64,000 nt of DNA from Advenella mimigardefordensis DPN7 (GTDB taxonomy: Bacteria; Pseudomonadota; Gammaproteobacteria; Burkholderiales; Burkholderiaceae_B), in the NCBI RefSeq assembly GCF_000521505.1, contig NZ_CP003915.1:2294001-2358000 (forward strand), given 5' to 3'. Each line of letters opens with the position of its first letter. The stretch's first letter is position 1. Under the pieces are notes generated by a model, which saw only the letters and a program-made list of their open reading frames with translations, did no database searches and had not been told where the DNA came from. Of this stretch, positions 23,140 to 53,591 are shown one piece after another. The translations under genes and the position numbers were made by a program.

Positions 23140-23155
23140 TGGCACGGTTATTGCT
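23140..23155 (+). promoter_or_regulatory. Sigma-54 (-24/-12) promoter for the SMP-30/Bug/hydrolase genes
   Basis: TGGCACGGTTATTGCT matches the RpoN consensus TGGCACG-N4-TTGCW at every specified position, with GG and GC exactly 10 bases apart. Expected transcription start about 23166, 248 bases before the gene at 23414. It lies in the 455-bp gap 22959-23413, which has no gene that I can support. Confidence 0.75.
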
Positions 23156-23323
23156 GACAATTGGTTATGCCTGAATAAGAGAATCGCACACGACGGCCAG
23201 ACGTTCATCTGAATTGTGGCTGGCTGTGACGGGGCGTGGCCGCAGCGACATATCACATCGTTAATAAGTTTGAAATGACATTATTATCAGGAACAGTGAA
23301 GAAGCAGATATTGCTTACAGGAG

Positions 23324-23338
23324 CGCGTTTTTAACGCG
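23324..23338. repeat. Short hairpin in the leader of the 23414 gene
   Basis: CGCGTT-TTT-AACGCG is a perfect 6-bp stem with a 3-base loop, located in the predicted 5' untranslated region between the sigma-54 start and the SMP-30-like gene. It could stabilise or attenuate the leader, or bind a protein; nothing decides between these. Confidence 0.35.
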
Positions 23339-23413
23339 GATATCCCAGTGCCTGCAACGGGTGGATGCCAGTGCGCTTGATCTCTAGCAATAACTGAAAA
23401 CCAAGGAGAATGA

Positions 23414-24340
23414 ATGAAGCACTTGACGCTGAAAGGCGAAATCATCGCGCGCGACCTGCAGTTTCCGGAAGGGCCGGTAGCCATGCCCGACGGAAGCGTA
23501 TTAATCGTTGAGATCGTAAGCGGTCGGTTGCTGCGAATTTATTCAGACCAGCGTCAGGAAATTGTCGCTCACCTCGGTGGTGGTCCGAACGGATTAGCCA
23601 TCGGGCCTGACGGCTATTGCTATGTCTGTAATAACGGCGGATTCGAATGGCACACAGAGAACGGTTTTACCCGCCCTCTTGCCGCCGCTGCGGACTATAA
23701 AGGTGGATGTATTCAACGTGTTCATTTGGAAAGCGGACAAGTCGACGTACTTTATTCGCATTGTGATGGCAATCCCTTGCATGGTCCCAATGATATCGTA
23801 TTCGACCAAATGGGCGGCTTCTGGTTTACGGACATGGGCAGGGCGTTTCATGATCGCATTGTGCGCGGCGCAGTCTACTACGCAAAGATTGACGGCAGCG
23901 AGATTCGCCAGGCTGCATTTCCTGTGCTTACGCCCAATGGCATTGGTCTGTCGCCTGATTTGAGCGTTCTCTATGTTGCCGAAACGGAAACCAGCCGCTT
24001 ATGGTCCTATTCAATCCTGGAGCCAGGTATTTTGCAAAGAGAACCCTGGCCTTCACCCAATGGTGGTCGTCTGCTTCACGGGCTGCCCGGCTTTCAGCGC
24101 TTTGACTCGCTCGCGGTTGAAGACGATGGCAATATCTGCGTCGCTACATTGGTAAACGGTGGCATTAGCGTTTTTTCACCCGACGGTGAGTTGCTGGAGT
24201 TTCATCAAGCGCCGGAGAACTATTGCACCAATATCTGCTTTGGCGGGCCGCAGCTGCGTGATGCTTACATAACGCTGTCCGGTTATGGACAGTTGATGAA
24301 GGTCAGATGGCCACGCGGTGGCCTTGCTTTGCAAGCATAA
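23414..24340 (+). CDS. SMP-30/gluconolactonase-family hydrolase
   Basis: 308 residues of the six-bladed beta-propeller SMP-30 family. The metal-ligand positions are recognisable: Glu in FPEGPVAMPDG, Asn in LHGPNDIVFDQMGG, and Asp in FDSLAVEDDGNICVATL. Family members hydrolyse sugar or other lactones with Ca2+ or Zn2+. AAGGAG lies before the ATG. First gene downstream of the sigma-54 promoter at 23140 and upstream of a Bug protein and an alpha/beta hydrolase, so a lactone or ester entering the pathway is plausible (inference). Confidence 0.88.
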   Translation: MKHLTLKGEIIARDLQFPEGPVAMPDGSVLIVEIVSGRLLRIYSDQRQEIVAHLGGGPNGLAIGPDGYCYVCNNGGFEWHTENGFTRPLAAAADYKGGCIQRVHLESGQVDVLYSHCDGNPLHGPNDIVFDQMGGFWFTDMGRAFHDRIVRGAVYYAKIDGSEIRQAAFPVLTPNGIGLSPDLSVLYVAETETSRLWSYSILEPGILQREPWPSPNGGRLLHGLPGFQRFDSLAVEDDGNICVATLVNGGISVFSPDGELLEFHQAPENYCTNICFGGPQLRDAYITLSGYGQLMKVRWPRGGLALQA

Positions 24341-24384
24341 CAAGACACTATGCAGAATGAAAAATTACAAAGGAGACTATTTGA

Positions 24385-25368
24385 ATGGATAGGATTATTA
24401 CACTTGTCAGGCGTAGCGGATTGAAGCTGATTGCCGCAGTTGTCATCGCTTCCCCGAACATCGCCACTGCGGCCTACCCCGATAAACCCATCAGTGTCGC
24501 ACTACCATTCGCACTGGGCGGGCCGGTTGACATTCTGATGCGTGCCGTACAGGAACCACTGCAAAAAGAGCTTGGCCAGCCTGTTGTCATCGTTCCCAAA
24601 GAAGGTGCATCGGGTATTGTTGCCACGCGCTACGTCGCAAGGGCGCCTGCAGATGGATACACCTTGCTGATCCAGACTAACGGTATGCTGATTACGCCTC
24701 AGATTAATAAGCAGGCAGGTTTTGATCCATTGCGCGATTTCGAACCCGTCGCATTGCTGGGAGTTCAGCCTATGGTACTGGTGACGCATCCTTCGTTGCC
24801 CGTAAAAACTGTGCAGGAGCTGATTTCCTACGCGAAGGCCCACCCCGGAGAAATCGATTTTGCTTCATCAGGTCCTGCCTCCAACGGTCGTCTTGCCACA
24901 GAAACGTTTATGAAACTGGCTGACATAAAAATGAACCACGTGCCCTATAAGGGTGTGGGCCAGATCACGCTGGCGTTGATGTCTGGTGAGGTGCAGCTCA
25001 TGCTGTCGTCGGTCACGCCTCAGATCAGCCAGCAGATCAAAGAAGGTAAACTGAATTTGCTGGGCACCGCCTCGGCAGGAGAAAGCGCACTCATGCCTGG
25101 CGTAGAACCCATTTCCAATACTCTCAAAGGGTTTCAGGCGGAGGTCTGGTTTCTGATTGCAGCTCCGGCAGGCACACCACCAGATGTTGTCGACAAGCTG
25201 CAGAAGAGCATTACACATGTCTTGAATACGCCGCAAATGCAGGAGCGTTTCAAAGCTGCCAGCGCGACGGTAAAAACGGCGACGCCCGATGTTCTGAAGC
25301 ATATGATGGCGGACGAGTATTCACGGATTGGCGAGATCGTTTCTGAAATCGGCGACATCAATAAGTAA
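24385..25368 (+). CDS. Bug/TctC-family periplasmic binding protein
   Basis: 327 residues. Signal peptide about 1-30 (LKLIAAVVIASPNIATA, cleavage near TAA). The mature chain begins YPDKPISVALPFALGGPVDILMRAV, the normal first strand and ligand loop, then PADGYTLLIQTNG, HVPYKGVGQITLALMSGEVQ and AEVWFLIAAPAGTP. It sits 44 bases after the SMP-30-like gene and 37 before the hydrolase at 25406, in one transcript from the sigma-54 promoter. No TctAB genes are nearby. Confidence 0.92.
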   Translation: MDRIITLVRRSGLKLIAAVVIASPNIATAAYPDKPISVALPFALGGPVDILMRAVQEPLQKELGQPVVIVPKEGASGIVATRYVARAPADGYTLLIQTNGMLITPQINKQAGFDPLRDFEPVALLGVQPMVLVTHPSLPVKTVQELISYAKAHPGEIDFASSGPASNGRLATETFMKLADIKMNHVPYKGVGQITLALMSGEVQLMLSSVTPQISQQIKEGKLNLLGTASAGESALMPGVEPISNTLKGFQAEVWFLIAAPAGTPPDVVDKLQKSITHVLNTPQMQERFKAASATVKTATPDVLKHMMADEYSRIGEIVSEIGDINK

Positions 25369-25405
25369 TTTTCCAAATAGTGACTATCAATTAACGGAGA
25401 CAGCA

Positions 25406-26248
25406 ATGCCGAATATTCGGGTGAATGATGCGAACATCTTTTATCACGATGATGATTACACGGATCCCTGGGATTCATCCGACGCAGTCATGCTGCAACA
25501 TGGGCTTGGGCGTACCGGTAATATGTATTATGGCTGGGTACCCCATCTGAGCCGCCAGTTCCGGGTCATTCGACCCAATTTGCGGGGTGTGGGACCTGGT
25601 GCAGATCCCGGGCCAGACATTGAGTTTTCTCTTGACCAGATACTGTCAGACTTTGTGGGCGTGTTGGATAAGCTTGGTATTGAGAAAGTGCATTACGTGG
25701 GCGAGTCATTAGGCAGCATCCTGGGGGTGATATTTGCAGCGACCCATCCGCAACGCGTAAAAAGCCTGACTCTGGTCTCTTCTATCATACGGGTAAGGCC
25801 GGAAAAAACAGTGGCGATCAATTCGGTCGGCTATCCAACCTGGGCCGAAGCGCTGGACCAATTGGGGATGAAACAGTGGTGGCTTCGCTCCCGCGAAGTC
25901 ACGAACCAGCTCACAGGCAATGCAGCCAAAGACGAGTGGTTTGCCGACGAATGTGGCAGCTGGCCGCTGCATGTGGCACAGGCGTTGCTGCGCTTTGCGA
26001 GTCAGGTTTCTGCTGAATCGCTATTGAGCAGTGTTAAGGCACCTACGTTGGTGCTATCGGCCGGCAACAGCCCCCATAGCGGTCAGGAAGAACAACAGTT
26101 TATTCTGGATAATATCGCGGGATCACGGCAAATTGTTTATCCGGAGGCCAAACATATCGACTGCTATTTGCAACCAGATCAATTTGCGCGTGATACATGT
26201 ACCTTTTTACGCGAGGTAAGTGCTTCAGCGCAGTGTGAAGCTTTCTGA
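25406..26248 (+). CDS. Alpha/beta-fold hydrolase
   Basis: 280 residues from the ATG at 25406 (MPNIRVNDANIFYHDDD), preceded by ACGGAGACAGCA; the longer frame from 25328 overlaps the Bug gene and has no family sequence. Oxyanion motif LQHGLGRTG, nucleophile elbow VGESLGS with Ser, and late His in PEAKHIDCYL form the triad. It resembles 3-oxoadipate enol-lactonase-type esterases in size and motif order, but the substrate is not identifiable. Its last 24 bases overlap the convergent dehydrogenase gene at 26225, a tail-to-tail overlap without a terminator. Confidence 0.88.
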   Translation: MPNIRVNDANIFYHDDDYTDPWDSSDAVMLQHGLGRTGNMYYGWVPHLSRQFRVIRPNLRGVGPGADPGPDIEFSLDQILSDFVGVLDKLGIEKVHYVGESLGSILGVIFAATHPQRVKSLTLVSSIIRVRPEKTVAINSVGYPTWAEALDQLGMKQWWLRSREVTNQLTGNAAKDEWFADECGSWPLHVAQALLRFASQVSAESLLSSVKAPTLVLSAGNSPHSGQEEQQFILDNIAGSRQIVYPEAKHIDCYLQPDQFARDTCTFLREVSASAQCEAF

Positions 26249-27511: not shown

Positions 27512-27534
27512 ACTTTTTCCATTCTTTATGATCG

Positions 27535-27563: not shown

Positions 27564-27613
27564 TTCTCTTTTATGCAATGCAGTCACATCGCGCGGCTAA
27601 GTTAAGGATGAAA

Positions 27614-29807: not shown

Positions 29808-29823
29808 AGCAAGTTGCATGCCA
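29808..29823 (-). promoter_or_regulatory. Sigma-54 (-24/-12) promoter for the Bug genes at 29665 and 28585
   Basis: On the minus strand the sequence reads TGGCATGCAACTTGCT: TGGCAYG, four free bases, TTGCT, with the exact GG-GC spacing. Expected start about 29797, 132 bases before the ATG at 29665. It is divergent from the plus-strand element at 30113, with 289 bp between them. The 29666-30235 gap has no gene that I can support. Confidence 0.68.
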
Positions 29824-30112
29824 ATTTTTCTTGTCCAGCGTCGTTGCACTTAAGGAAATAACGAGAGGCTTAAAAGTGTGGTAACCGGACATGCTGAACT
29901 TCTTCTTGTGTCCTTTCTCGTCGTATGTGTCCTTTGCATATTCGCAATTGTCTGCTCAGAAAACAATATGATTAAACACTTCCTGGATATTGCTGAGGTC
30001 ACTTCAATATACCTGTTCATTCATTTGTGGGCGAGCGTTACATAGGTGTGCATATCAATGTCAAACATTTAAGCGGAATGGGTATTTTGTCCTATTGAAA
30101 CATTAGAAATAC

Positions 30113-30128
30113 TGGCATAGAAATTGCT
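30113..30128 (+). promoter_or_regulatory. Sigma-54 (-24/-12) promoter for the 30.2 kb hydrolase and Bug genes
   Basis: TGGCATAGAAATTGCT matches TGGCAYR-N4-TTGCW with the exact spacing. Expected start about 30139, giving a leader of about 97 bases before the ATG at 30236. Between it and the divergent partner at 29808 lie two direct copies of GTGTCCTTT (about 29910 and 29931) and a GGACA...TGTCC dyad, possible activator sites. Confidence 0.65.
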
Positions 30129-40240: not shown

Positions 40241-41878
40241 CTATTTCAGATCGGCAAGAATCATATCCGCGCACTTCTCCCCGATCATCATGCACGGGAC
40301 GCTGGTATTGCCCGAGATAATTGTCGGCATTACAGATGCATCTGCAATACGCAACCCTTCAATACCGTGAACTTTCAGGCGTTCATCTACCACCGCCATG
40401 GGATCTTTACCCATCTTGCATGAACCGACCATATGTTGCGTCGACTGTCCTGTTTCCCGGATGTATGACAGAATGTCTTCGTCGGACTTGATCGCAGCGC
40501 CGGGCGCCAGTTCGGTGGCAATCGCTTCACGCATCGGACTGCTAGCGGCGATATCCCGGGCACGTCTTACGGCTGCGATCGCTGTTTTTCGGTCGTAGTC
40601 CGTATCAAGAAATCGATATTTAACAACGGGCGGATCAAACGGCGCTGCAGATCGAATATGCACACTGCCCGTGCTTTCAGTTCGCTGTACATGGCTGTAC
40701 ATGAAGAACCCTTCCGTCTTTGACATGCGCCGCCCTTTTCCTGCGAGCAATTCAATAATATAGGGACTGACGACCATCATGACGTCCGGCTCCTTGACCT
40801 GATCGCTTGAACGGGCAAAAACACGCACTGATCCATGCCCTTGTGAGATCATGCCCTTACGCAGAAAGACCCACTTCAGTACTTCCAACCCCAGCCGCCA
40901 GCCACGCCCCTTTTTCGCGAGGGAAATACCCGGCCGATTGAATTTCCATTTCATGAGCGCGGCATAATGATCCCGTAGATTCTCGCCTACGCCACGCAGC
41001 TCGTGTACCGGCTCGATCCCATGCTTGCGCAAAATGTCGGGATTACCAATACCTGATAATTCCAGCAACTTAGGCGTATTTGCCGTACCAGCGCAGACAA
41101 TGACTTCACGGCGGGCACGGATTTCGCGGCGTTGACCTTTCTGCATGATACGTACGCCTACGCAGCGCTTGCCTTCCAGTATGAGCGAGGTGGCTTCGGT
41201 ACCCTTCATGATCGTGAGGTTTTTCCTGTTCCGAGCCGGCCGCAGATAGGATGTGGCCGTACTCTGGCGAGCGCCATTGCGTGCCGTCAACTGGGCCATC
41301 GCAGCGCCCTCCTGCATTGCTCCGCTATAGTCTTCGTTGTACGGAATATCCGCCGATTTCGCGGCTGCGAAGAACAGGTCATAAAACGGACACAGTTTGC
41401 GCGTTTGCGTTACCGAAATCGGCCCGTTACGGCCTCGGAATTCATCGGATCCCAACTTGGTATTTTCGATTTTTTTGAAATACGGCAAGACTTCACTATA
41501 GCTCCAGCCGGTACAACCGAGACGACTCCAGGTATCGTAGTCCAGCTTCTGTCCCCGGTTATACACAATGGCGTTGATTGAACTGCTGCCGCCCAGCATT
41601 TTTCCACGCGGTACCGCCAGGGAACGATTCCCATAGCTGGGATCGGGTTCAGACTCGTAGCGCCAGTCCACGGCCGGGTTATCAACCAGATATTGCAGCG
41701 CCAGCGGTGGTCGCGTAAAGATATAAGATGCGCCTTTTGTTCCGGCTTCAATGCACAAAACCTGGTACTTCCCGTTCTCACTCAATCGACTGGCCACAAC
41801 GCCGCCGCCGGATCCGGAGCCGACCACGATAAAGTCGAAAGTCTCCTGATCCGCCTTGTTTTTATTTGACATACTCAT
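40241..41878 (-). CDS. GMC-family FAD alcohol oxidoreductase
   Basis: 545 residues. FAD motif FIVVGSGSGGGVVASRL, GMC signature PRGKMLGGSSSINAIVYNRG, and C-terminal STQHMVGSCKMG (His) with ISGNTSVPCMMIGEKCAD (Asn). It is the last gene of the 47891-40241 operon and begins one base after the aldehyde dehydrogenase stop, so translation is probably coupled. The alcohol-to-aldehyde-to-acid pair repeats that at 18755/20308, though sequence details differ and this copy has a different loop composition (AKKGRGWRLGLEVLKWVFLR). Confidence 0.91.
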   Translation of the reverse strand: MSMSNKNKADQETFDFIVVGSGSGGGVVASRLSENGKYQVLCIEAGTKGASYIFTRPPLALQYLVDNPAVDWRYESEPDPSYGNRSLAVPRGKMLGGSSSINAIVYNRGQKLDYDTWSRLGCTGWSYSEVLPYFKKIENTKLGSDEFRGRNGPISVTQTRKLCPFYDLFFAAAKSADIPYNEDYSGAMQEGAAMAQLTARNGARQSTATSYLRPARNRKNLTIMKGTEATSLILEGKRCVGVRIMQKGQRREIRARREVIVCAGTANTPKLLELSGIGNPDILRKHGIEPVHELRGVGENLRDHYAALMKWKFNRPGISLAKKGRGWRLGLEVLKWVFLRKGMISQGHGSVRVFARSSDQVKEPDVMMVVSPYIIELLAGKGRRMSKTEGFFMYSHVQRTESTGSVHIRSAAPFDPPVVKYRFLDTDYDRKTAIAAVRRARDIAASSPMREAIATELAPGAAIKSDEDILSYIRETGQSTQHMVGSCKMGKDPMAVVDERLKVHGIEGLRIADASVMPTIISGNTSVPCMMIGEKCADMILADLK

Positions 41879-41879
41879 C

Positions 41880-43367
41880 TTAATTCCCGTTGATATACAC
41901 GCTCTTTTCGTAAAGGAATCCGTCTATATGCTGGGCACCGCCCTTCATGCCGTATCCACTCTGCTTGCATCCGCTGAAACCCACGGCGGGATCGGCCAGG
42001 CCATAGCAATTAATCCAGATTTTGCCGGCCTGGATGCCGTTCATGGCCGCCATCATGGTGCCGACATTGGTCGTCCAGACCGCTCCGCCCAATCCATAGA
42101 TGGTGTCATTGGCCAATCTGAGCGCGTCGTCTACTGTATCGAAGGGGATGACTGATGCTACCGGTCCGAATATTTCCTCTCTGGCGATGCGCATATCGTT
42201 ATGCACGTCGCTGAAAACTGTAGGCTGCACAAAATACCCTTCAGCCAGTTCAGCCCCGAGCCGTGTTCCTCCGGTTACCAGGCTGGCGCCCTCTTCCTGT
42301 CCGATTGTCATATATTCCATGACCCTCTCCAGTTGCCTGCCTGATATCAGAGGGCCGAGCTGCGACGCAGGGTCAAAGGGGTCGCCCACTTTAATGCCGC
42401 GGGTAAACGCAGCCAGCTTTTCCACAAATTCGTCGTAAATGCCACGCTGTACAAATATACGTGTACCGGCGGAACAGATTTGCCCGGAATTGTTATATAC
42501 GCCCATTGCGGCGCCAGGCACTGCTTTTTCCAGATCGGCATCTGCAAAAACAATATCGGGGGACTTGCCGCCCAGTTCCAGCTGAATACGCTTCATATTG
42601 CCAGCGGACGCCTTGATGATCTCTCTGCCGGTCATGGTGGATCCGGTAAAGCAAATGCGATCCACGTCCATATGTTCAGCAAGGGCAGCCCCCGCTTCTG
42701 CACCCAGACCCGTCACCACATTCACAACACCAGGAGGCACGCCTGCTTCCACAAGTAATTCTGCTGTTCTTAATGTAGTCAAAGAGGCATCCTCAGCTGT
42801 CTTAATGACAGTTGTGCATCCAGTAGCTAACGTCCCGCCGATGGTCCACCACATACTGATTAACGGTGCATTCCATGGAATAATGCTGCCAATGACGCCC
42901 ACAGGTGCCTTCAGGGTCAGCGTGGTAAAGTCTCCCTTCAGCGAATTGGGGATCGTTGTCCCTGACCAGTTCATTGCCTGGCTCGCAAAGTACTTAATTG
43001 TCTGGAACAGACTGTTTTTCATGGCGCGGGTGCGACTAATCGGCGCACCCATATCCATGGACTCGATCGTGGCCAACTCATCGAAATGCTGATCCAGCAC
43101 ATCGCATACGCGCAACATCAGCGTATAGCGTTCGAAAGGGGTAAAGCGGCTCCATGGTCCCTGAAAGGCCCGCCGGGCCGCCTGGACAGCCAGGTCTACG
43201 TCTTCGCGACTGCCTTTGGCCAGTGTCGCCAGCACCTTTCCGGTGGCCGGGTTGTAAGTGTCGATCGTTTCGCCAGACAGCGCAGGCCTCCACTTGCCAT
43301 CGATAAAATGCTGTTTTTGTTGACTGGATAGAAACTGCATCTGCGCAGTCGTTGAATTTTCGGTCAT
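41880..43367 (-). CDS. NAD(P)+-dependent aldehyde dehydrogenase
   Basis: 495 residues from the ATG at 43367 (MTENSTTAQMQFLSSQQ), with CAGG 8 bases before; the longer frame from 43400 adds atypical residues. ALDH landmarks: IPWNAPLISMWWTIGGTLATGC, FTGSTMTGREI, ELGGKSPDIVFADADL (Glu) and NNSGQICSAGTRIFV (Cys). It would oxidise the product of the adjacent GMC enzyme to a carboxylate. Located between the Bug gene at 43463 and the GMC gene at 40241. Confidence 0.92.
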   Translation of the reverse strand: MTENSTTAQMQFLSSQQKQHFIDGKWRPALSGETIDTYNPATGKVLATLAKGSREDVDLAVQAARRAFQGPWSRFTPFERYTLMLRVCDVLDQHFDELATIESMDMGAPISRTRAMKNSLFQTIKYFASQAMNWSGTTIPNSLKGDFTTLTLKAPVGVIGSIIPWNAPLISMWWTIGGTLATGCTTVIKTAEDASLTTLRTAELLVEAGVPPGVVNVVTGLGAEAGAALAEHMDVDRICFTGSTMTGREIIKASAGNMKRIQLELGGKSPDIVFADADLEKAVPGAAMGVYNNSGQICSAGTRIFVQRGIYDEFVEKLAAFTRGIKVGDPFDPASQLGPLISGRQLERVMEYMTIGQEEGASLVTGGTRLGAELAEGYFVQPTVFSDVHNDMRIAREEIFGPVASVIPFDTVDDALRLANDTIYGLGGAVWTTNVGTMMAAMNGIQAGKIWINCYGLADPAVGFSGCKQSGYGMKGGAQHIDGFLYEKSVYINGN

Positions 43368-43462
43368 ATTGTTTGCCTGATATATTCGTGATATCTCCAT
43401 TGCTCAGCCGCAAGGGCATTGATCTGAGTCGCGGAGATGTTCGGGTGAGTGATGACGGAAGC

Positions 43463-44467
43463 TTACAGATCAAGCTTGAGCCGTGCTCCCAGCTCTCTGG
43501 CTCGTTCAATTTCCCGCTGATTCATGGTTTTGAACTCGTCTGGCGTACCCGTAAAGGGTTCCGTATAGAAAGTGTCCCGCATTCGCGTTTGTACCTCGGG
43601 TACGGCCGTGACTTTATTGATAGCACTGTTCAATTCCTGTATAAGTGCGTCCGGCATGCCCTTTGGACCCACAAGGCCAAAGTAGCTATACGGTTCTATT
43701 GCTTCTAACCCTTTGATGCCCACTTCTTCTGTTCCTGGAATGCCGGGAAGATAGGATAATGCTTTGGGCGCAGTGACCGCGAGGGCGCGAACCCTGCCAT
43801 CCTTAATGAATGGCATCGCTGATTGTATCGTCGTAATGCATAAGTGAACGGTACCCGACGCAACCTGTATAAGAATGTCGGTATCCGATTTATACGGAAT
43901 ATGCTCTGCCTTCAATCCGCTTGCCAGTTTAAGATATTCGGTCTTTATATGGTTGGCCGAACCAATCCCTGCAGAACCATAATTGACCATGCCGGGGTTC
44001 TTGGCCGAGTATTCAACCAGCTCCTGCAGTGTTTTCACAGGTAGCGCTGCATTGACCGTGATGACTGCTGAGGAAATACCGGTCAATGCAATAAATGAGA
44101 AATCTTTCATCGGGTCATAAGTCACATCCTTACGAATGGCGGGAAACAGGGACAATGAACTGCCGGTGCCCATATAAAGGATGCGCCCGTTGGCTGCTGC
44201 ATCCTTGACCGAATTGATGGCCTGCATCTGGAAGGCGCCGGGTTTGTTCTCAATGACAACGGCGGTACCCAATTGATCCAGCAATTTTTGTCCATAGAGC
44301 CGTGCGATGGAGTCCGTTGCGCCGCCCGCGCCCATGCCGACCAGGACACGAACAGGGCCCGAGCCAAGCGCCTGGGCGAGCCCCGTGATGGGTGTTGTCA
44401 GGAATGCCATGCCAGCGCAACCGGCGCTTGCCGTCTTGAGCCATTCGCGTCGGGTATAGTGTTTCAT
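43463..44467 (-). CDS. Bug/TctC-family periplasmic binding protein
   Basis: 334 residues with a Tat-like leader (HYTRREWLKTASAGCAGMAFLTTPITGLAQ). Mature part: VRVLVGMGAGGATDSIARLYGQKLLDQL, NKPGAFQMQAINSVKDAAANGRILYMGTGSS and HIPYKSDTDILIQVASGTVH. It is the counterpart of 32447, in the same position after an amidohydrolase gene. The first loop (GMGAGGATDS) differs from the usual PPGGxxD, so ligand contacts may be unusual. The 136-base gap to the amidohydrolase gene has no clear promoter. Confidence 0.92.
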   Translation of the reverse strand: MKHYTRREWLKTASAGCAGMAFLTTPITGLAQALGSGPVRVLVGMGAGGATDSIARLYGQKLLDQLGTAVVIENKPGAFQMQAINSVKDAAANGRILYMGTGSSLSLFPAIRKDVTYDPMKDFSFIALTGISSAVITVNAALPVKTLQELVEYSAKNPGMVNYGSAGIGSANHIKTEYLKLASGLKAEHIPYKSDTDILIQVASGTVHLCITTIQSAMPFIKDGRVRALAVTAPKALSYLPGIPGTEEVGIKGLEAIEPYSYFGLVGPKGMPDALIQELNSAINKVTAVPEVQTRMRDTFYTEPFTGTPDEFKTMNQREIERARELGARLKLDL

Positions 44468-44603
44468 AGTACAGTCTCGCTATTATCGTTTAGTATTTCA
44501 ATAGTAGTGAGCGTCGCGCATCATCGAATTATCGGATCAATACGAAACGCTTGGAGCGTAGAAAGCGTGAAGCCCTGTCAATACCGCTTTCCTATTGTGT
44601 GAT

Positions 44604-45650
44604 TCAAGTCATCCTGTAAAACTGCCTCGCGGTGCCGTTGAAAATCCAGTTTTTCTCGTCTACTGAACATCCAGCCATGACTCTTTTGAACATATTCCAC
44701 ACAGTGCCATATGGAACACCTGCTTTATCGACAGGGAAGTTCGACGACACCATACATCGCTGAGCGCCGAACAGCTCAACACAGGGTTCCAGGTAGGGCC
44801 GCCACAGCTGTGCCAATTGCTCAGAATTAAGCGGGGACGGCACAGCTGTAAAGTCATAGCTCCCCAGGCACATCAGAAGCCCTCCCAGTTTGATTGATAC
44901 ATTGGGACAAGCGGCCAACGCCTTCATACCTTTCATCCAATCCGCGTATACCTCTTCTTCCCGTCCCCGGTAGGATGCATGACCCACTGGGCTACCACAA
45001 TGGATAACGACAATCCGCGAGTCAGGGTGCGCCTGTGCCAGTTTTGCTAAATCCATTAATTGCGGATGAAATACGCTGGCGTCGAAGGATAGCCCCATTG
45101 TGGTGAGTACATCAAGCCCCTGGCGAAAATGTTTATCGGCGAACAGATCGGATCGTCCGGCATGGACGGCACCACGAACCGCAGGATCCGGGTCCCATTT
45201 TGCACGCTGGCGTATGCCTCGGAAACGCCCATTGGCCGCTTCCATATGTGCTTCAAGGGCTTCGCCTGCGCGAGAGCCGAGGGTCAGGTCTGCATATCCA
45301 ACAATAACGTCAGCCACACGACAGTCGGTATACTTTCGACTGTTTGCCTGCGCCGCCATTCCGACGGCAAACTCGGTTTCTCCAATGCATTTCAAATGAT
45401 CGGGACCGTCGGCGCGATACATCGAATGACATTCGACATATACCGTGGCGTCAATCCGGTGGTTCGATTGTGCAGCATCGTCGGCGAACTCCGGCAAAAA
45501 ATACCGATAGCCGGTTTTGTGGTCCCACAAATGCATATGCGCGTCTACGATGGGGATATGGGGATCAATCGCGGTTTCCGGTACAGCGCGCCCAAGCCAT
45601 TCAAGGTTTGGAGCACGGGTCGCGGAAAATAAGGATGAGCTTGCATTCAT
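44604..45650 (-). CDS. Amidohydrolase-family (PF04909-type) TIM-barrel hydrolase
   Basis: 348 residues from the ATG at 45650 (MNASSSLFSATRAPN), preceded by AAAGG. HxH in IVDAHMHLWDHKTGY, then FRGIRQRAKWD, VVIHCGSPVGHASYRGR and RCMVSSNFPVDKAGVPYGTVW. Paralog of 33542 in the duplicated dehydrogenase - amidohydrolase - Bug block. The paired sequences keep the metal and late-barrel motifs, so both should be active. The reaction is probably hydrolysis of a lactone or decarboxylation of a ring acid (family-based inference). Confidence 0.88.
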   Translation of the reverse strand: MNASSSLFSATRAPNLEWLGRAVPETAIDPHIPIVDAHMHLWDHKTGYRYFLPEFADDAAQSNHRIDATVYVECHSMYRADGPDHLKCIGETEFAVGMAAQANSRKYTDCRVADVIVGYADLTLGSRAGEALEAHMEAANGRFRGIRQRAKWDPDPAVRGAVHAGRSDLFADKHFRQGLDVLTTMGLSFDASVFHPQLMDLAKLAQAHPDSRIVVIHCGSPVGHASYRGREEEVYADWMKGMKALAACPNVSIKLGGLLMCLGSYDFTAVPSPLNSEQLAQLWRPYLEPCVELFGAQRCMVSSNFPVDKAGVPYGTVWNMFKRVMAGCSVDEKNWIFNGTARQFYRMT

Positions 45651-45717
45651 CTGATTACCTTTCACCAGTTACAGATTCCGGTCCGAAGGCCTCCGGTAAA
45701 AGAGGCCTGGAGATAGC

Positions 45718-47547
45718 TTAGGCGCCAGCGAAACTGAAGTCTCCCGCTTTTTCGAATAAGCCGGCCATGGCATCCAAATTGGCGCTTCCCCCAAAGGAAT
45801 TGGCACCCGTTTCGTACAGGCTGGTGACAACGCTCGCAATCAGCATCGGTGCGCCGCAGTCGATCGCCATCCTGCCTGCCAGATTCAGATCCTTGACCAT
45901 CAATTGCAACTGAAAGTCAGCCGTCTTCCTGCCTTCAGATAGCGCAGGCAAAACCCGTTCCGAATGACCATTCCAACCGGTGCTGCTATTAACAATATCA
46001 GCGACGTCTGACAGCTTCAAACCGTATCTGACCGCTAGTGACGCAGCTTCATAGGTTAACAAGCGATTGCAGGCAGCCACTGCATTATTAATCAGCTTGG
46101 CCGAGTGCCCATTGCCCGTCTGGCCGCAATACACGAGATTTGGGCTAATGTGTTCGAGAATAGGCTTCACTGTGTCGTAGGAAGCTGCGGGGCCACCGCA
46201 CATAATGGCAATGGTTCCGGCTACGGCCCCACGCGGACCACCGGAGACAGGTGCGTCCACCAACGTCACCCCTATTTTTTCCAGATCCAGGGCAATACTA
46301 CGGGTTAGGGACGGGTCTCCCGTTGTCTGGTCGACAATGATGGTGCCCGGCGTCAAGCCTTCTGCAAGCCCGTTTTCCCCGAAGATCACTTCGCGAACGA
46401 TGGCCGATGTTGGCACACAAATGAAAATAACATTGCTGGAGCGGGCCAGTGCAGGCAAATCGGCTGCGGCAACGGCACCGTCTTGTTCCATTGCGCTGAC
46501 GTTCTGCGCCTGTGTGTCATACACCGTGACGGGCTGGGCGAGTAATAAGCGACGCGCCAGTGCGCCGCCCATGGTGCCCAATCCGACGTAACCGACCCGC
46601 AAGCCCTCATCTGCTGCATGACTACCCGCAATAACCGATTCCTTTTGAGCGGAAGGTGCAGCATCTGCAATTTTTGTGTCGGCCATTGATTCGATAACGC
46701 CAAGCAACTGATCCAACTGTGCTTTTTCACCTAATGTACTTACGCCAATCTGCAGCAGTCCGCGTGCGATCCGTGTAATCGTTGTTGGCACCTTGCATGA
46801 AACACCCAGTTGTATCGCCTGATTCAAATCCTTCAGCATGAGTGACATGGCGAAATTTGATTTGGCCTTCGTTCCCTGAACCAGGGCATTGAGCATGACT
46901 TTCGAAGTGCGATTGCGCCCCGAACCCTTATTAATGACATCTGTCATGGACTCAAGGGACAAGCCCATCTTTTTGCCCATTGCGACAATTTCAAGTGTGG
47001 CAACCCGCAAGCCGGCGCTCAGCATATTATTGATTAGCTTCATTGCCTGAGCGTCGCCCACCTTGCTGCCACAACAGATCACATTTGTACTGATGGCATC
47101 CAGTACCGGCCTGGCTTTCTGCACATCCGCATCGGCACCGGATACCATGATCGTAATTGTGCCGGCTTCAGCACCGGCGACGCCACCAGACACGGGCGCA
47201 TCGACCATGGCAATTCCCTTGCCGGCCAACTGTGTACTGATCCGTTGTGTTTCCTCCGGCAGCCCGCTGGTCTGGTCAATGATAAGGTGACCTTCCCGCA
47301 GCCCAAGGCCCAGACCATCGGATCCGAATACTACCTGGTCCACATCCGAGCTACGAGGCATGCAAAGTAGTATGATCTCGCAGCGGTTTGCCAGATCTGC
47401 AGCAGAAGTGGCGACGGTCGCACCGAGTTTTCCGAAAGCTGCGCTTGCTTCAGGATTGATGTCCCAAACTGTCAATTGATGTGTGTTGAGCAAATGCCTG
47501 GCCAACGCACCGCCCATGGCACCCAGCCCGATATATCCGATATTCAT
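45718..47547 (-). CDS. Tandem fusion of two beta-hydroxyacid dehydrogenase units
   Basis: 609 residues, twice the usual length. Copy 1 (about 1-300): IGYIGLGAMGGALARHLL, DAPVSGGVAGAEAGTITIMVSG and Lys in GDAQAMKLINNMLSAGLR. Copy 2 (about 318-609): VGYVGLGTMGGALARRLL, DAPVSGGPRGAVAGTIAIMCGG and Lys in GNGHSAKLINNAVAACNR. Both keep the nucleotide fold and catalytic Lys, so both may be active; the linker is Ala/Ser-rich. The start is the ATG at 47547, with AAGGG upstream. In the operon it lies between the carboxymuconolactone-decarboxylase-like gene and the amidohydrolase. Single-copy family members normally work as dimers or tetramers; a covalent dimer is the simplest reading. Confidence 0.9.
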   Translation of the reverse strand: MNIGYIGLGAMGGALARHLLNTHQLTVWDINPEASAAFGKLGATVATSAADLANRCEIILLCMPRSSDVDQVVFGSDGLGLGLREGHLIIDQTSGLPEETQRISTQLAGKGIAMVDAPVSGGVAGAEAGTITIMVSGADADVQKARPVLDAISTNVICCGSKVGDAQAMKLINNMLSAGLRVATLEIVAMGKKMGLSLESMTDVINKGSGRNRTSKVMLNALVQGTKAKSNFAMSLMLKDLNQAIQLGVSCKVPTTITRIARGLLQIGVSTLGEKAQLDQLLGVIESMADTKIADAAPSAQKESVIAGSHAADEGLRVGYVGLGTMGGALARRLLLAQPVTVYDTQAQNVSAMEQDGAVAAADLPALARSSNVIFICVPTSAIVREVIFGENGLAEGLTPGTIIVDQTTGDPSLTRSIALDLEKIGVTLVDAPVSGGPRGAVAGTIAIMCGGPAASYDTVKPILEHISPNLVYCGQTGNGHSAKLINNAVAACNRLLTYEAASLAVRYGLKLSDVADIVNSSTGWNGHSERVLPALSEGRKTADFQLQLMVKDLNLAGRMAIDCGAPMLIASVVTSLYETGANSFGGSANLDAMAGLFEKAGDFSFAGA

Positions 47548-47561
47548 CACGCAATCCCTTA

Positions 47562-47891
47562 TTATTCTTCGTTTTCGAACAAGTCAAGCGCCGCTTTACC
47601 CGCGCACAAACCTGCAGGCCACCCGGCATAAAATGTGACCTGCACAACAAGCCCGCGCAGTTCATCAAGGGTAATGCCATTCTCCACGCCGCGGCGCATC
47701 CACACACGCAATTCATCTATTTTGCCGCCTGCCGCGAGAACACCCAGGGTGACCAGAATGCGATCACGATAGGCGAGTTCAGGTTGCTTCCACACATCCC
47801 CGAGCAGAACATTTTCACGTAGGCGTGCCAGTTCGGGCACACATTTATATACTCTTGCGGAATCCGATGTAGAAGTCGGTGTTGTCGCCAT
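47562..47891 (-). CDS. Carboxymuconolactone decarboxylase-like protein
   Basis: 109 residues from the ATG at 47891 (MATTPTSTSDSARVYK), with AAAGGAG ideally placed; the longer frame to 48146 crosses a predicted promoter and is not coding. Core motif RDRILVTLGVLAAGGKIDELRVWMRRGVENGITLDELRGLVVQVTFYAGWPAGLCA, with the family's helical pattern; the Cys pair of AhpD-type proteins is absent, so it fits the decarboxylase-like rather than the peroxidase branch. First gene of the operon 47891-40241, about 37 bases after the predicted sigma-54 transcription start. Confidence 0.88.
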   Translation of the reverse strand: MATTPTSTSDSARVYKCVPELARLRENVLLGDVWKQPELAYRDRILVTLGVLAAGGKIDELRVWMRRGVENGITLDELRGLVVQVTFYAGWPAGLCAGKAALDLFENEE

Positions 47892-47938: not shown

Positions 47939-47954
47939 AGCAAAGAGTGTGCCA
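47939..47954 (-). promoter_or_regulatory. Sigma-54 (-24/-12) promoter for the 47891-40241 operon
   Basis: The minus strand reads TGGCACACTCTTTGCT: TGGCAC, then CTCT as the four free bases, then TTGCT, with exact GG-GC spacing. Expected start about 47928, 37 bases before the ATG at 47891. It is divergent from the element at 48107. Confidence 0.75.
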
Positions 47955-48106: not shown

Positions 48107-48122
48107 CGGCACACATTTTGCT
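48107..48122 (+). promoter_or_regulatory. Sigma-54-like promoter for the Bug gene at 48199
   Basis: CGGCACACATTTTGCT fits the RpoN pattern except for C instead of T at the first base; GG and GC spacing is exact. Expected start about 48133, 66 bases before the ATG at 48199. Confidence 0.6.
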
Positions 48123-48198
48123 TTTAAAAGAATCGACGTTCCGCAAGTTTCATTCGGACCCTCAAATTCAACAAGAACAGTCATACTCTGGAGACAAT

Positions 48199-49221: not shown

Positions 49222-49253
49222 CGAGGATGATGGCACGAGAGATTGGATAAAAA

Positions 49254-49293
49254 CAGCGGCCGCAGAAAAACGGCCGCTGCCTGAACTTTTTTT
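49254..49293. terminator. Bidirectional rho-independent terminator
   Basis: CAGCGGCCG (49254-49262) and CGGCCGCTG (49271-49279) form a perfect GC-rich 9-bp stem with an 8-base loop. On the minus strand TTTTTATCC follows at once; on the plus strand a run of seven T follows after seven bases (49287-49293). It separates the convergent genes ending at 49221 and 49307. Confidence 0.85.
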
Positions 49294-49306
49294 ATCGCAT
49301 TAATCT

Positions 49307-50032
49307 TTAAGTAATCGCCAGCAACATTTGCGTCAATTGTTCCGGCATCAGACTCATCGCATTATGTCCGGTAGGAATTTCAAGATATTCCCAGCCTGGC
49401 ATGCTTTGCGCAATGGTGCGAGACGCCTCTGTGGTAGCAAAATACGGATTGGAGCATGCGATATAGGTAGTCGGGACACCATTTCCCAATGTATTTTTCA
49501 AATGCAACTTGTCGTAGTAAGTTTGCAAGGGGTGAGGCGTCAGTTTTGTTTCATACCATTTAGCCTGCTCCGAATCCGTGATCCCATAATGAATGGGTTC
49601 GGCTGGAGGGATACTCAGACCATCCCCCGAGGCAATGGCCTTTTGGCGATAGGCCTCCACGCGTTCCGGAGAACGATCTGCAGACGATTCCCCGGAATTC
49701 AATATCAAGGCATCAAGATAGACCAGATGTCTCAGTCGATCCGGCATTCTATCCGCTATGGCTGACAAAACAGAGCCGGCAAAGCTGTGCCCGACCAGAA
49801 TGACCTCGCTGAGGTCTTCGAATTTTATCACTTGTGCAATATCTTCAATGAATGTATCAAGCGTCGTTTGTGCAGTGAGTAAATGGGAGCGTTCTCCAAG
49901 CCCGGTAAGGGTTGGCGTATAAACAGTATGACCTTTCCCTCTTAGCGTTTGTGTGACCTCTTTCCAGCACCATGCACCATGGTAGGCGCCGTGTACCAGC
50001 ACATAGGTCTTATTCCTTGTAGCACTACTCAT
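49307..50032 (-). CDS. Alpha/beta-fold hydrolase (EstC/HNL-like)
   Basis: 241 residues. Motifs YVLVHGAYHGAWCWKEV, GLGERSHL, nucleophile Ser in LVGHSFAGSVLSAIADRMP, and late His in EIPTGHNAMSLMPEQL. This pattern is that of the plant hydroxynitrile lyase/pyrethroid-esterase branch; bacterial members are small esterases. GGGAGG before the ATG, which overlaps the Bug stop at 50029 by four bases (ATGA). It pairs with the Bug gene and may hydrolyse an ester related to the bound ligand (inference). Confidence 0.9.
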   Translation of the reverse strand: MSSATRNKTYVLVHGAYHGAWCWKEVTQTLRGKGHTVYTPTLTGLGERSHLLTAQTTLDTFIEDIAQVIKFEDLSEVILVGHSFAGSVLSAIADRMPDRLRHLVYLDALILNSGESSADRSPERVEAYRQKAIASGDGLSIPPAEPIHYGITDSEQAKWYETKLTPHPLQTYYDKLHLKNTLGNGVPTTYIACSNPYFATTEASRTIAQSMPGWEYLEIPTGHNAMSLMPEQLTQMLLAIT

Positions 50033-51060
50033 TTTCTGTCCTCCCTTACGGTTTGTATTAATTTTGAGTTTGCTTCGGCTTCTTCCGTCAGATATGTATT
50101 GAACTGTTCAGGAGAAAGATCGAGATTCTCGGCACCTTCAACCTGATAGCGTTCATGCATTTCATCGCTGGATACGGCGTATTTCAATCCTTCGTAGAGT
50201 TTGCTTATTACTTCCTTTGGGGTACCTGCCGGGGCAACCAAACCGAGCCAATAGTAATAGGTGAAGTCGACTCCCTGCTCTTTAAGTGTCGGCACGTTAG
50301 GTAGCGCGGGCATTCTGCGTTCACCAGTTACACCCAGGGGACGCATTTTTCCCGACGCGAGGTATGAAAGTCCGCCGCTATAACCGGCAAAGATGGTATT
50401 AACGCGTCCGCTTGCCACATCGGGGTAAGACAACGCTGAACCGTTGTATGGTACAGCCACAACATCAATGCCGGTCTTTTGTATAAATTGCGCGCCACTC
50501 AGATGCATCGGCGTCCCCAGACCAGCATGAGCATAGGTCAGCTGACCAGGGCTGGCTTTGGCGCGCTCTATAAACTGCGTCACCGATTTTGCAGGTTCTC
50601 CGGAACCAACATACATCAATTGCGGAGCACGCAGCATCATTCCGATACCAGTGAAATCTGTGATGGCGTTGTAACCGGCACCGGGCCGCAGCAGTGGCGT
50701 GGCGGTAAATCCCTCAGCCTGAGCCAGAATGGTGTATCCATCCGGTCGTGCATTCTTGACATAACGCGTTCCAATTTGCGTCTCAGCGCCATTGCGGTTC
50801 TCAACGATCACTGTCTGCTTCAGTTTTTCACCCATTTTTTCAGCAACAATGCGGGTAATGATATCGAGCGCACCACCAGCGCCTGATGGCACGATAATAT
50901 GGATGGGTTTGGCTGGAAATGGCTCAGCCGCGTCAGCCGGACAGATGCCCGCCCATAGCAGGGCCATCGCGCCAGACACGCCAAACAATACGGTACGTGT
51001 TAAATCCGGGCTGGCGCACTTGTCCGCCGCACGCATACACGTTATGAATTTTGTCTCCAT
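50029..51060 (-). CDS. Bug/TctC-family periplasmic binding protein
   Basis: 343 residues. Extended N-terminus; leader LFGVSGAMALLWAGICPADA with a likely cleavage after ADA, then FPAKPIHIIVPSGAGGALDIITRIVAEKMGEKL, NRNGAETQIGTRYVKNARPDGYTILAQAEGFTATPLL and AVPYNGSALSYPDVASGRVN. Paralog of 27614 and 28694 (IITR/LTTR-RIVAEKM and the double A/S-GF motif). CGGAGACATA precedes the ATG. Upstream is a 127-base gap with a palindrome and the end of the Ltp2-like gene. Confidence 0.92.
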   Translation of the reverse strand: METKFITCMRAADKCASPDLTRTVLFGVSGAMALLWAGICPADAAEPFPAKPIHIIVPSGAGGALDIITRIVAEKMGEKLKQTVIVENRNGAETQIGTRYVKNARPDGYTILAQAEGFTATPLLRPGAGYNAITDFTGIGMMLRAPQLMYVGSGEPAKSVTQFIERAKASPGQLTYAHAGLGTPMHLSGAQFIQKTGIDVVAVPYNGSALSYPDVASGRVNTIFAGYSGGLSYLASGKMRPLGVTGERRMPALPNVPTLKEQGVDFTYYYWLGLVAPAGTPKEVISKLYEGLKYAVSSDEMHERYQVEGAENLDLSPEQFNTYLTEEAEANSKLIQTVREDRK

Positions 51061-51128
51061 TATGTCTCCGAATAGTATTTTATTAATGCCGTAATCTTGA
51101 TTGTTTTATGTCTTTATTTTGGCCGTCG

Positions 51129-51143
51129 CAAAATGGCATTTTG
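51129..51143. promoter_or_regulatory. Palindrome upstream of the Bug gene at 51060
   Basis: CAAAATG-G-CATTTTG is a perfect 7-bp inverted repeat around a single base, 69 bases upstream of the ATG at 51060 in the gap 51061-51187. Its size fits a dimeric repressor or activator site; no -24/-12 element is present here. Confidence 0.4.
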
Positions 51144-51187
51144 TGAACAGCTGTGCCTCCTGTACCACAGCCGTTTCAGCAAGACGT

Positions 51188-52366
51188 TTAGCCTTTGTCA
51201 GACGCCAGAATTGCGGTGCAGTGCGAAGACAGCACGCCGCCCTCATTGTGCACAATGGCCACTTCCGCGCCGTTTACCTGCCGCTCTCCCAATCCGCCAC
51301 GCAATTGCCTGACGGCCTCTACAATGCCGAACAACCCGCCTGCCGCCCCTGCATGAGCATGCGATAACATGCCGCCATGGGTGTTGACAGGCAACCGTCC
51401 GCCAATCCTGGCATGTCCTTCGGCAAAGAACGCCCCGCCCTCGCCCCTTTCACAGAACCCAAGTTCTTCCAGTTCGATGATGGGCACAATCGTGAAGCAA
51501 TCGTAGAGTTCCGCAACGTCTACATCCTTCGGACCCAGGCCAGCCATCTCATATGCAATCCGGCCCGATTCAGTGACACCAAACTCCGACAGGCTTGGTG
51601 CGCATAATAAATGTTCATGAGTGTGATATTCACCGATACCCTGCAGATAGACAGGACTGGATTTCAGGTCGCGCGCGCGTTCCGCTGAAGTAACGATGAA
51701 AGCACCGCCGGCATCCGAAATAAGGCAGCAATCATACATGCCCAGTGGATCGGCTATCGGCTTTGCATTCAGTACCTGTTCCTGCGTCAATGGGGTTTTC
51801 ATGTGGGCATTCGGATGCAACAACGCATGTTCCCGGGTATGCACCGCCACCTGAGCCAGTTGTTCACGTGTGGTTCCATATACATGCATATGCCGATTGG
51901 CAATCATGGCGTAAAAGCCCGGAATCGACGTACCGTAAGGTTGTTCGAAATACGGGTGGCCCACCACCGCCAGCGCGGCCACAGCGGCATCACGGGTGAC
52001 TCCAGTCGCCCTGTTCTCTCCTGCGCAAACAAGAATCGTCTCCGCCTGGCCGGCGACAATCGCCTCGGCCGCATGCTTTAACATCGCTGCGGGACTGGCC
52101 CCGCCGACAACCATGGACGCGTTATACCGGGGCTTAAGGCCGAGGTACTCACAAATGACCGATCCCAGCATGAAGTAAGGTTCGGTAAACGAATAGGCAG
52201 TAAGAACGCCGTCAATATCAGACACCGCCAGCCCGGCGTCATCCAGCGCCCGCTTGGCTGCCTGCGCATTCAGGCCTAGCCCGGTCATATTTGGAACCCG
52301 ACCAATATCAGATTCACCGACGCCGACAATGGCCACTTTGTTTTTCAGGGAATGTTGTTTTTTCAT
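51188..52366 (-). CDS. Ltp2/SCP-x thiolase-fold protein, probable retro-aldolase subunit (second copy)
   Basis: 392 residues, the same length as the copy at 1017 and nearly collinear with it. Near residues 81-95 it reads YNASMVVGGASPAAM, again without the thiolase Cys; the C-terminal NTHGGMLSHAHAGAAGG is identical. AGG lies 6 bases before the ATG. The order DUF35 (52377), then this gene, then the operon end is conserved between clusters, but here the MaoC gene is first and no second MaoC protein is present. The substrate probably differs from, or overlaps with, that of the 528-5594 cluster. Confidence 0.85.
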   Translation of the reverse strand: MKKQHSLKNKVAIVGVGESDIGRVPNMTGLGLNAQAAKRALDDAGLAVSDIDGVLTAYSFTEPYFMLGSVICEYLGLKPRYNASMVVGGASPAAMLKHAAEAIVAGQAETILVCAGENRATGVTRDAAVAALAVVGHPYFEQPYGTSIPGFYAMIANRHMHVYGTTREQLAQVAVHTREHALLHPNAHMKTPLTQEQVLNAKPIADPLGMYDCCLISDAGGAFIVTSAERARDLKSSPVYLQGIGEYHTHEHLLCAPSLSEFGVTESGRIAYEMAGLGPKDVDVAELYDCFTIVPIIELEELGFCERGEGGAFFAEGHARIGGRLPVNTHGGMLSHAHAGAAGGLFGIVEAVRQLRGGLGERQVNGAEVAIVHNEGGVLSSHCTAILASDKG

Positions 52367-52376
52367 GTGCTACCTG

Positions 52377-52787
52377 TCAATTTGCTACGCGTTCAAACTG
52401 GGGAATCAGATCGCCATCACCCCGATCTTCAAAGGTGACCAGCACACGATCGCCTATTTTCACAGACAGTGCGTCCTGACCAAGGATATTGGCCACAATG
52501 CGCGGGCCTTCATCCAGCTCTATCATCGCCGTCACATAAGGTGTCTGGCCGGCGAAGACCGGCGTGGGTGCGCGATGTATGACGCTGAAACTGTACACAG
52601 AGCCCGCACCTCTGCTTTCTACCCATTCCAGGTCTTCAGACCAGCAGTCGGGGCAGATAAAACGTGGCATGAAATGCATCTGGCCGCAGCTATTACAGCG
52701 TCGGATCAATAATTTACGATCCCGCGCGCCTTGCCAGTACACCTGGGAATCCGCATTCGAAACGGGTTTGGGAAGAGAGAGCGTCAT
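52377..52787 (-). CDS. DUF35 zinc-ribbon/OB-fold acyl-CoA protein (second copy)
   Basis: 136 residues. Zinc ribbon Cys in RRCNSCGQMHFMPRFICPDCWS, followed by the OB fold. Shorter N-terminus than the copy at 2209 by about 11 residues. CAGGAG before the ATG, 10 bases upstream of the Ltp2-like gene. Expected to form a complex with that protein as in Ltp2-ChsH2(DUF35). Confidence 0.88.
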   Translation of the reverse strand: MTLSLPKPVSNADSQVYWQGARDRKLLIRRCNSCGQMHFMPRFICPDCWSEDLEWVESRGAGSVYSFSVIHRAPTPVFAGQTPYVTAMIELDEGPRIVANILGQDALSVKIGDRVLVTFEDRGDGDLIPQFERVAN

Positions 52788-52851
52788 GGTTTACTCCTGA
52801 AAATGCAACGCTTTGTATTGAGTTTCAGACCTCGCTCGGGTCTGCCTGAAT

Positions 52852-53313
52852 TCATTGGGGCTTGCGACGGTACAGGATGGAAACCTCCATTTCCTGAACC
52901 ACTACACCATCCTGCCGAACAAATTTGCGATGCAGTTTGACCACGCCTCTATCAGTTTTTTTCGAGGGTTTGGTTTCAAGCACCGTTGCTTCAGCATGCA
53001 GCGTATCCCCATGTTTCACCGGTTCGAGCATGCGCCATTTGTCTACCTGCAGTAAGGCGAGCAAGGTATTGCGATTGACGCCACTGGCGTATTGCAATCC
53101 GCCCATCACCGCATAGACCAGTGGTCCGTGCGCAATCGGCTCACCGAAAGGCGTGTTCTTGCAGTACTCCCAGTTGGTATGAACTTCGTTGAAATCTCCC
53201 GACAAGCAGGCAAAGTTCACGATATCGGTAGACGTGATGGTTCGGGCCGGGGTCGTGATTATCATTCCCACACTGAAATCTTCCCAGTACATTCCTGTTG
53301 TCCTGTCCGTCAT
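52852..53313 (-). CDS. MaoC-family enoyl-CoA hydratase (catalytic type, second copy)
   Basis: 153 residues from the ATG at 53313 (MTDRTTGMYWEDFSVG), with TGGAG 9 bases before; the upstream ATG at 53328 overlaps that site. The catalytic motif LSGDFNEVHTNW is identical to the copy at 528, and FGEPIAHGPLVYAVMGGLQYASGVN is nearly so. First gene of the second Ltp2 cluster; about 58 bases after the predicted sigma-54 start. A 64-base gap separates it from the DUF35 gene. Confidence 0.9.
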   Translation of the reverse strand: MTDRTTGMYWEDFSVGMIITTPARTITSTDIVNFACLSGDFNEVHTNWEYCKNTPFGEPIAHGPLVYAVMGGLQYASGVNRNTLLALLQVDKWRMLEPVKHGDTLHAEATVLETKPSKKTDRGVVKLHRKFVRQDGVVVQEMEVSILYRRKPQ

Positions 53314-53381
53314 AATGTGTTTCTCCATTGCATCTGTGATTCAATCATTGCGCCTGGTTATGAGGCGTATCCACGGACATA

Positions 53382-53397
53382 TGCAATATTCATGCCA
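53382..53397 (-). promoter_or_regulatory. Sigma-54 (-24/-12) promoter for the second Ltp2/DUF35/MaoC cluster
   Basis: The minus strand reads TGGCATGAATATTGCA: TGGCAYG-N4-TTGCA with the exact spacing. Expected start about 53371, 58 bases before the ATG at 53313. Divergent from the plus-strand element at 53576; the two share the spacer 53398-53575. Confidence 0.75.
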
Positions 53398-53447
53398 GCG
53401 TGTGTTTTGACGAGACTCTCCTGCCCCGCAAGCGCTCCGCATATTTG

Positions 53448-53499
53448 CGTACACAAACCGCGTGGACACTTTATGTCCTCATAGAACACGTTTTGTGTA
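53448..53499. promoter_or_regulatory. Dyads between the 53.4 and 53.6 kb sigma-54 promoters
   Basis: This stretch contains TACACAAA (53450-53457) and TTTGTGTA (53492-53499), inverted repeats 34 bases apart, with GGACA-N5-TGTCC (53464-53478) between them, and CGTACA (53448-53453), the half-site also seen at 48050. It lies 51-102 bp from the minus-strand -24 box and about 77-128 bp from the plus-strand one, fitting a shared activator site. Confidence 0.45.
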
Positions 53500-53575
53500 T
53501 TCACAGGACAGCGCGTCTTCATGTATTCGAGTGCCACACCGTCGGGGACTGAGGCAACACCGGGTTCCGCAGGGT

Positions 53576-53591
53576 TGGCACGAGATTTGCG
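53576..53591 (+). promoter_or_regulatory. Sigma-54 (-24/-12) promoter for the crotonase/LivK genes
   Basis: TGGCACGAGATTTGCG matches the consensus at all positions except the last weak one (G for A/T). Expected start about 53602, 70 bases before the ATG at 53672. Confidence 0.78.

Follow-up and report, generated by a model that had tools for sequence, protein, structure and literature searches.

The seven sigma-54 promoters predicted in a 64,000-nucleotide stretch of the Advenella mimigardefordensis DPN7 genome (the window; all positions count from its first base) look real on sequence criteria. We consider it probable that they are RpoN promoters of one local regulon, whose activator would be the AAA+/Fis enhancer-binding protein encoded at 65441-67150. 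Since the activator gene begins just beyond the window and its putative docking site recurs at most of the promoters, they probably act as one local switch. An earlier note on this DNA had proposed that one activator, not encoded here, controls all of these genes. The sigma-54 promoters and a single regulon hold up as predictions and a single activator is probable, whereas the absence of the activator does not stand; the regulon appears to include the window sites named earlier and to reach past the window to about 82.6 kb.

Sigma-54 elements in the window and beyond

A pattern scan of the window recovered the seven -24/-12 matches that had been claimed, namely six exact copies of TGGCAYR-N4-TTGC and a first-base variant at 48107, with GG and GC equally spaced in all of them, as had also been claimed. 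All seven have the sequence that characterizes a sigma-54 promoter; the consensus given in an excerpt of PMC2725144 is mrNrYTGGCACG-N4-TTGCWNNw, with GG at about -24 and GC at about -12. The three divergent pairs described in the window were present. Some details needed revision: the plus-strand starts were right, the minus-strand starts were one base low (correctly 29809, 47940 and 53383), and the distance from site end to start codon, put at 37-250 bp, came to 48-259 bp for all seven. The placement of all seven in non-coding gaps depends, for 29809, 47940 and 48107, on the choice of start codon; we preferred ATG starts behind a ribosome-binding site to longer mechanical open reading frames (ORFs). 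The earlier list lacked one further exact match, 25974(+), which lies within the α/β-hydrolase frame 25328-26248. The features are as follows, with gene assignments from Pfam where marked.

23140..23154, plus strand: exact sigma-54 element TGGCACGGTTATTGC; precedes lactonase-like (SGL) gene 23414, TctC gene 24385 and hydrolase gene 25328; weakest upstream motif score
29809..29823, minus strand: exact sigma-54 element TGGCATGCAACTTGC; precedes TctC genes 28694 and 27614 (Pfam)
29908..29933, plus strand: two GTGTCCT half-sites (29908-29914 and 29927-29933), candidate activator site common to 29809/30113
30113..30127, plus strand: exact sigma-54 element TGGCATAGAAATTGC; precedes hydrolase gene (from about 30236) and TctC gene 31330
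40241..47891, minus strand: operon for CMD-family protein, double HIBADH-like protein, amidohydrolase, TctC, aldehyde dehydrogenase and GMC oxidoreductase (Pfam)
47940..47954, minus strand: exact sigma-54 element TGGCACACTCTTTGC; precedes the GMC-oxidoreductase operon 40241..47891
48107..48121, plus strand: first-base variant sigma-54 element CGGCACACATTTTGC; precedes TctC gene 48199
49307..53328, minus strand: operon for MaoC protein, OB/zinc-ribbon protein (ChsH2/BbsA-like), thiolase (Ltp2/BbsB-like), TctC and hydrolase (Pfam; NCBIfam BbsA/BbsB below cut-off)
53383..53397, minus strand: exact sigma-54 element TGGCATGAATATTGC; precedes the thiolase operon
53473..53511, no strand given: two 17-bp inverted half-site pairs, candidate activator sites common to 53383/53576
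53576..53590, plus strand: exact sigma-54 element TGGCACGAGATTTGC; precedes enoyl-CoA hydratase gene 53672 and periplasmic binding protein gene 54502
55851..63986, minus strand: genes for CoA ligase, enoyl-CoA hydratase, SDR, acyl-CoA dehydrogenase, 3-hydroxyacyl-CoA dehydrogenases, CoA-transferase and quinone-oxidoreductase-like protein; with a CoA-transferase gene and element 65321(-) at their head, beyond the window
65441-67150 (window coordinates), plus strand: sigma-54 activator gene, outside the window, at C1:2359441-2361150

The earlier note had suggested weighing the motif against a genome-wide background. The window is C1:2294001-2358000; the smaller of the genome's two contigs is 23,610 bases long, and 45% of its first 6 kb matches a plasmid of Advenella kashmirensis at 90.2%. 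Across both contigs (4,764,126 bases) we counted 46 exact matches, a density that predicts about 0.6 per 64 kb; the window holds 7. The reversed control pattern gave 8 matches genome-wide. With up to one mismatch, the window contained 18 matches; 100 shuffles averaged 7.94 (sd 2.78), and none of them reached 18. Eleven of the 46 exact matches, 25974 included, fall within 60 kb, whereas 46 points placed at random 20,000 times never gave more than 7. We take ten of the eleven to be non-coding; adding the variant at 48107 gives eleven non-coding elements from 23140 to 82557. Those beyond the window are 65321(-) and 67556(+), on either side of the activator gene, and the divergent pair 82332(-)/82557(+); element 82332 falls in a mechanical ORF extension, and the SDR domain in that frame begins only at about residue 70. 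The variant at 48107 occupies the same gap as the exact element 47940. Among the 15 elements in 124 kb that have one mismatch but keep GG and GC, it alone scores high for the upstream motif (3.41, compared with 0.73 or less for the other 14). The genome has a single rpoN gene (one PF04552 match, E 5.1e-57).

The neighbouring activator and its candidate half-sites

That the activator is not encoded here is correct for the window only. Following the suggestion to look in the rest of the genome, we found the gene for a 569-aa AAA+/Fis sigma-54 activator beside the island, 1.44 kb past base 64000 and between elements 65321(-) and 67556(+). Its AAA+ sigma-54 interaction domain (PF00158, residues 241-408, E 6.1e-62) contains GAFTGA and is accompanied by a lid domain match and a C-terminal Fis-type helix-turn-helix (HTH; PF02954, HTH_8, residues 526-563, E 6e-12); a fold search covered residues 233-489. 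By Pfam the sensor region is of neither the V4R nor the GAF kind, and the protein itself has no Pfam PAS match; in its 76% ortholog P0005, PF00989 is over cut-off at residues 114-199. The best NCBIfam match is PrdR (NF041552) at 361.4 bits, far under the equivalog cut-off of 795 bits, and we rejected membership of that family. Six proteins of the genome have a strong sigma-54 interaction domain; another three matches score weakly (E 7e-6 to 2e-4). Of the other five activators, one is NtrC (over cut-off), one is NifA-like (below cut-off) and three are GAF proteins; they have only the AAA+/C-terminal part in common with the island activator (33-42%). The genome's NtrC (L032:1057-2622) lacks the literal string GAFTGA.

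We searched for upstream motifs in 38 regions preceding exact elements, of which 7 were from this genome (48107 included) and 31 from the neighbourhoods of activator homologs in relatives. Counting 7-mers with no prior choice ranked AGGACAC/GTGTCCT first, in 12 of 38 regions compared with 46 of 3692 background windows, which are mostly coding. In the relatives alone AGGACAC came second (9/31 versus 40/3087), with AAACACA ahead (9/31 versus 39). Half-sites with at most one mismatch averaged 5.7 per 200 bp at nine island sites and 1.34 at the 35 exact sites outside the island; for the 13 of those 35 that look intergenic the mean was 1.31. The island set drops 25974 and leaves out 48107 and 82557, and its paired sites share sequence and hence are not independent.

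A matrix learned on the relatives only, around GTGTCYT, scored seven independent island regions above 79 intergenic-like windows (p = 2.2e-6), although the matrix is short and T-rich (TGTNTTT-like). For regions 23140, 29809, 47940, 53576, 65321, 67556 and 82332, respectively, 12, 1, 0, 6, 7, 0 and 4 of the 79 controls scored at least as high, as did 5, 0, 0, 2, 2, 0 and 1 of the 35 other genomic sites; singly, then, 23140, 65321 and 53576 are weak under the matrix. Exact half-sites numbered five at 67556, three at 82332/82557, two at 29809/30113, one each at 53383/53576 and 65321, and none at 47940/48107 or 23140. The two measures thus order the regions differently, and the rank of 47940/48107 depends on which is used: it has the top matrix score yet no exact half-site. 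Most island promoters probably carry copies of the activator's predicted DNA docking site.

The geometry of the site is less uniform. Inverted half-site pairs over all 38 regions favour a 19-bp span (11/51), which is absent from the island itself (its pairs in the 15-22 bp range measure 15, 17, 17 and 18 bp); no 4+4-base dyad was common to at least four of the seven regions of this genome. We discarded the idea that the site is a strict 18-bp palindrome: such a palindrome fits one promoter (67365) and is not generally enriched, with 2, 3 and 11 matches in 124 kb at up to two, three and four mismatches, where 20 first-order Markov shuffles averaged 0.05, 0.7 and 10.35. The pattern GTGTMYT-N1-6-ARKACAC occurs at one place genome-wide (67365, both strands), but its rarity proves nothing because the reversed control gave 2 + 2, and only its location is telling. 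A genome_contigs scan returned two distant loci only.

Conservation in relatives and the extent of the probable regulon

Matches to the activator at E ≤ 1e-130 occur in 16 of 268 family genomes, its own included; in five genomes the identity is 71-76% across almost the entire protein. It is divergent from a CoA-transferase gene heading the operon in seven relatives (G003, G233, G147, G140, G102, G278 and G047) and from the CoA ligase gene in two (G144 and G251). The gene order of the CoA-thioester operon is kept beside the activator in relatives, with conserved -24/-12 elements. Among 22 genes in relatives, the element within 450 bp was exact for 15, had one mismatch for five, two for one and three for one, whereas an exact element preceded 31 of the 783 ORFs (at least 200 aa) of the same loci; this comparison was not blind, as the genes were picked once element locations had been seen, and the 783 ORFs include those 22. 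Orthologs (about 90%) of the enoyl-CoA hydratase 53672 had an exact element in all four fetched loci that hold them (G003, G147, G144 and G140).

The weakest member of the island on every measure is 23140. The earlier note had counted this lactonase promoter in the regulon. Its element is exact, but it has no exact half-site, and 12 of the 79 controls score as high. Lactonase matches occur in 39 of 268 family genomes, and of the 12 closest orthologs examined (about 70%) none of the 11 located loci had an element with at most one mismatch within 450 bp. Such observations would fit an alternative that we regard as unlikely overall, in which all sites are real sigma-54 promoters and only some (for example, 29809/30113, 53383/53576, 65321, 67556 and 82332/82557) answer the neighbouring activator, with 23140 and perhaps 47940/48107 under NtrC or another of the five other activators encoded in the genome, or idle. 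The lack of an exact half-site at 47940/48107 points the same way, but the matrix score there is equalled by none of the controls, and NtrC-type boxes were at chance level (32 in the window, where shuffles averaged 27.65; 4 in locus L042, where they averaged 8.46). A promoter cannot be deduced from an exact match by itself: 22 of the 35 such matches elsewhere in the genome fall inside frames of at least 150 aa, and 25974 lies inside a gene. Even so, the excess over the reversed control, the cluster of eleven within 60 kb, the elements conserved before orthologs and the linked activator with its upstream motif make it highly improbable that the matches arose by chance or bind sigma-54 without acting as promoters.

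In three relatives (G140, G102 and G251), separate paralogous sigma-54 activators adjoin the thiolase/OB/MaoC operon and the CoA-ligase/acyl-CoA-dehydrogenase operon, and the thiolase there is 86-87% identical to that of the island. The twist would be that one activator here serves genes that in relatives adjoin two. Because the relatives' thiolase operon adjoins a second activator whereas this genome has one such match, we tentatively suggest a merger of regulons with recruitment, in which one activator took over both operons and captured lineage-specific genes. The captured genes might be the GMC-oxidoreductase operon, the lactonase and esterase genes and the TctC genes; a conceivable route is the local gain of -24/-12 elements and activator sites, leading to some 11 promoters across 60 kb. 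The GMC operon looks specific to this lineage: for the 610-aa protein that it encodes at 45718-47550(-), made of two HIBADH-like halves, only 1 of 268 family genomes (its own) gave a match at E ≤ 1e-150. The esterase has a match at E ≤ 1e-60 in 3 of 268.

Predicted function, related systems and significance

The core operon encodes a CoA ligase, type III CoA-transferases, an acyl-CoA dehydrogenase, an enoyl-CoA hydratase, an SDR, 3-hydroxyacyl-CoA dehydrogenases and a quinone-oxidoreductase-like protein, and the MaoC, OB and thiolase proteins of the second are related to ChsH2/Ltp2 and to BbsA/BbsB (the latter below cut-off). Together with the TctC and ABC uptake proteins, the two operons point to uptake and CoA-dependent β-oxidation of a carboxylic acid, with alcohol/aldehyde oxidation upstream. 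TctC-type binding proteins make up 9 of the 40 Pfam-scanned proteins (24385-51060, L042:12753-13727), several directly behind sigma-54 elements. The hydrolase gene behind 30113 (30236-31308, +) seems to start at the ATG at 30236 and, by eye, changes frame at an eight-A run at about 30378-30385, which may reflect slippage, a sequencing error or a broken gene. A separate protein, 57957-58658(-), matches only the C-terminal part of 3-hydroxyacyl-CoA dehydrogenases and stands beside a full-length one in relatives too.

From the elements, the activator gene, the motif enrichment and the conservation in relatives, all of which can be read in the DNA, we infer binding, effector, substrate and transcription as follows. 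Sigma-54 holoenzyme would wait in a closed complex at each TGGCAYR-N4-TTGC; the PAS-like N-terminal region of the activator would sense a small molecule, which is probably either the substrate or an intermediate; the protein's Fis-type HTH would bind half-sites around GTGTCYT about 40-220 bp upstream; and the AAA+ ring, through its GAFTGA loop, would open the complex. Divergent promoter pairs would have one enhancer in common, and from 23.1 to 82.6 kb some eleven non-coding promoters would switch on together, inducing TctC and ABC uptake proteins, alcohol/aldehyde oxidation, lactonase/esterase genes and the CoA-thioester β-oxidation module with its thiolase/OB/MaoC set. The mechanism is ordinary; the arrangement is unusually dense for this genome.

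Local one-component activators such as DmpR/XylR and AcoR run sigma-54 catabolic regulons. Styrene/phenylacetate uptake in Pseudomonas putida CA-3, as described in an excerpt of PMC3224230, is a further sigma-54 catabolic system for comparison. Like these, the island has an AAA+ activator with GAFTGA and a Fis-type HTH, predicted -24/-12 promoters, candidate upstream sites and an activator gene beside its probable targets; unlike them, it has about eleven predicted promoters over 60 kb with four divergent pairs, TctC-rich targets and a sensor that is neither V4R nor GAF by Pfam. Bordetella pertussis belongs to the same bacterial group as the island host. Its BP2158 is, like the island activator, a Fis-type sigma-54 regulator, and according to an excerpt of PMC11722255 its regulon genes are not yet known. 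An excerpt of the A. mimigardefordensis proteomics paper PMC5373536 lacks the tags MIM_c20 and MIM_c21, a weak result given that its tables print tags without the prefix, and an excerpt of PMC12316311 does not name Advenella, Bordetella or Achromobacter. Our literature search, whose coverage left out most subscription journals, returned nothing on the island activator or its regulon.

A sigma-54 activator family for which we found no papers thus gains a predicted binding motif, a target list and a predicted inducible operon set. Deleting the single activator gene would make the substrate findable, and the island offers a tractable case of gene recruitment into an enhancer-dependent regulon.
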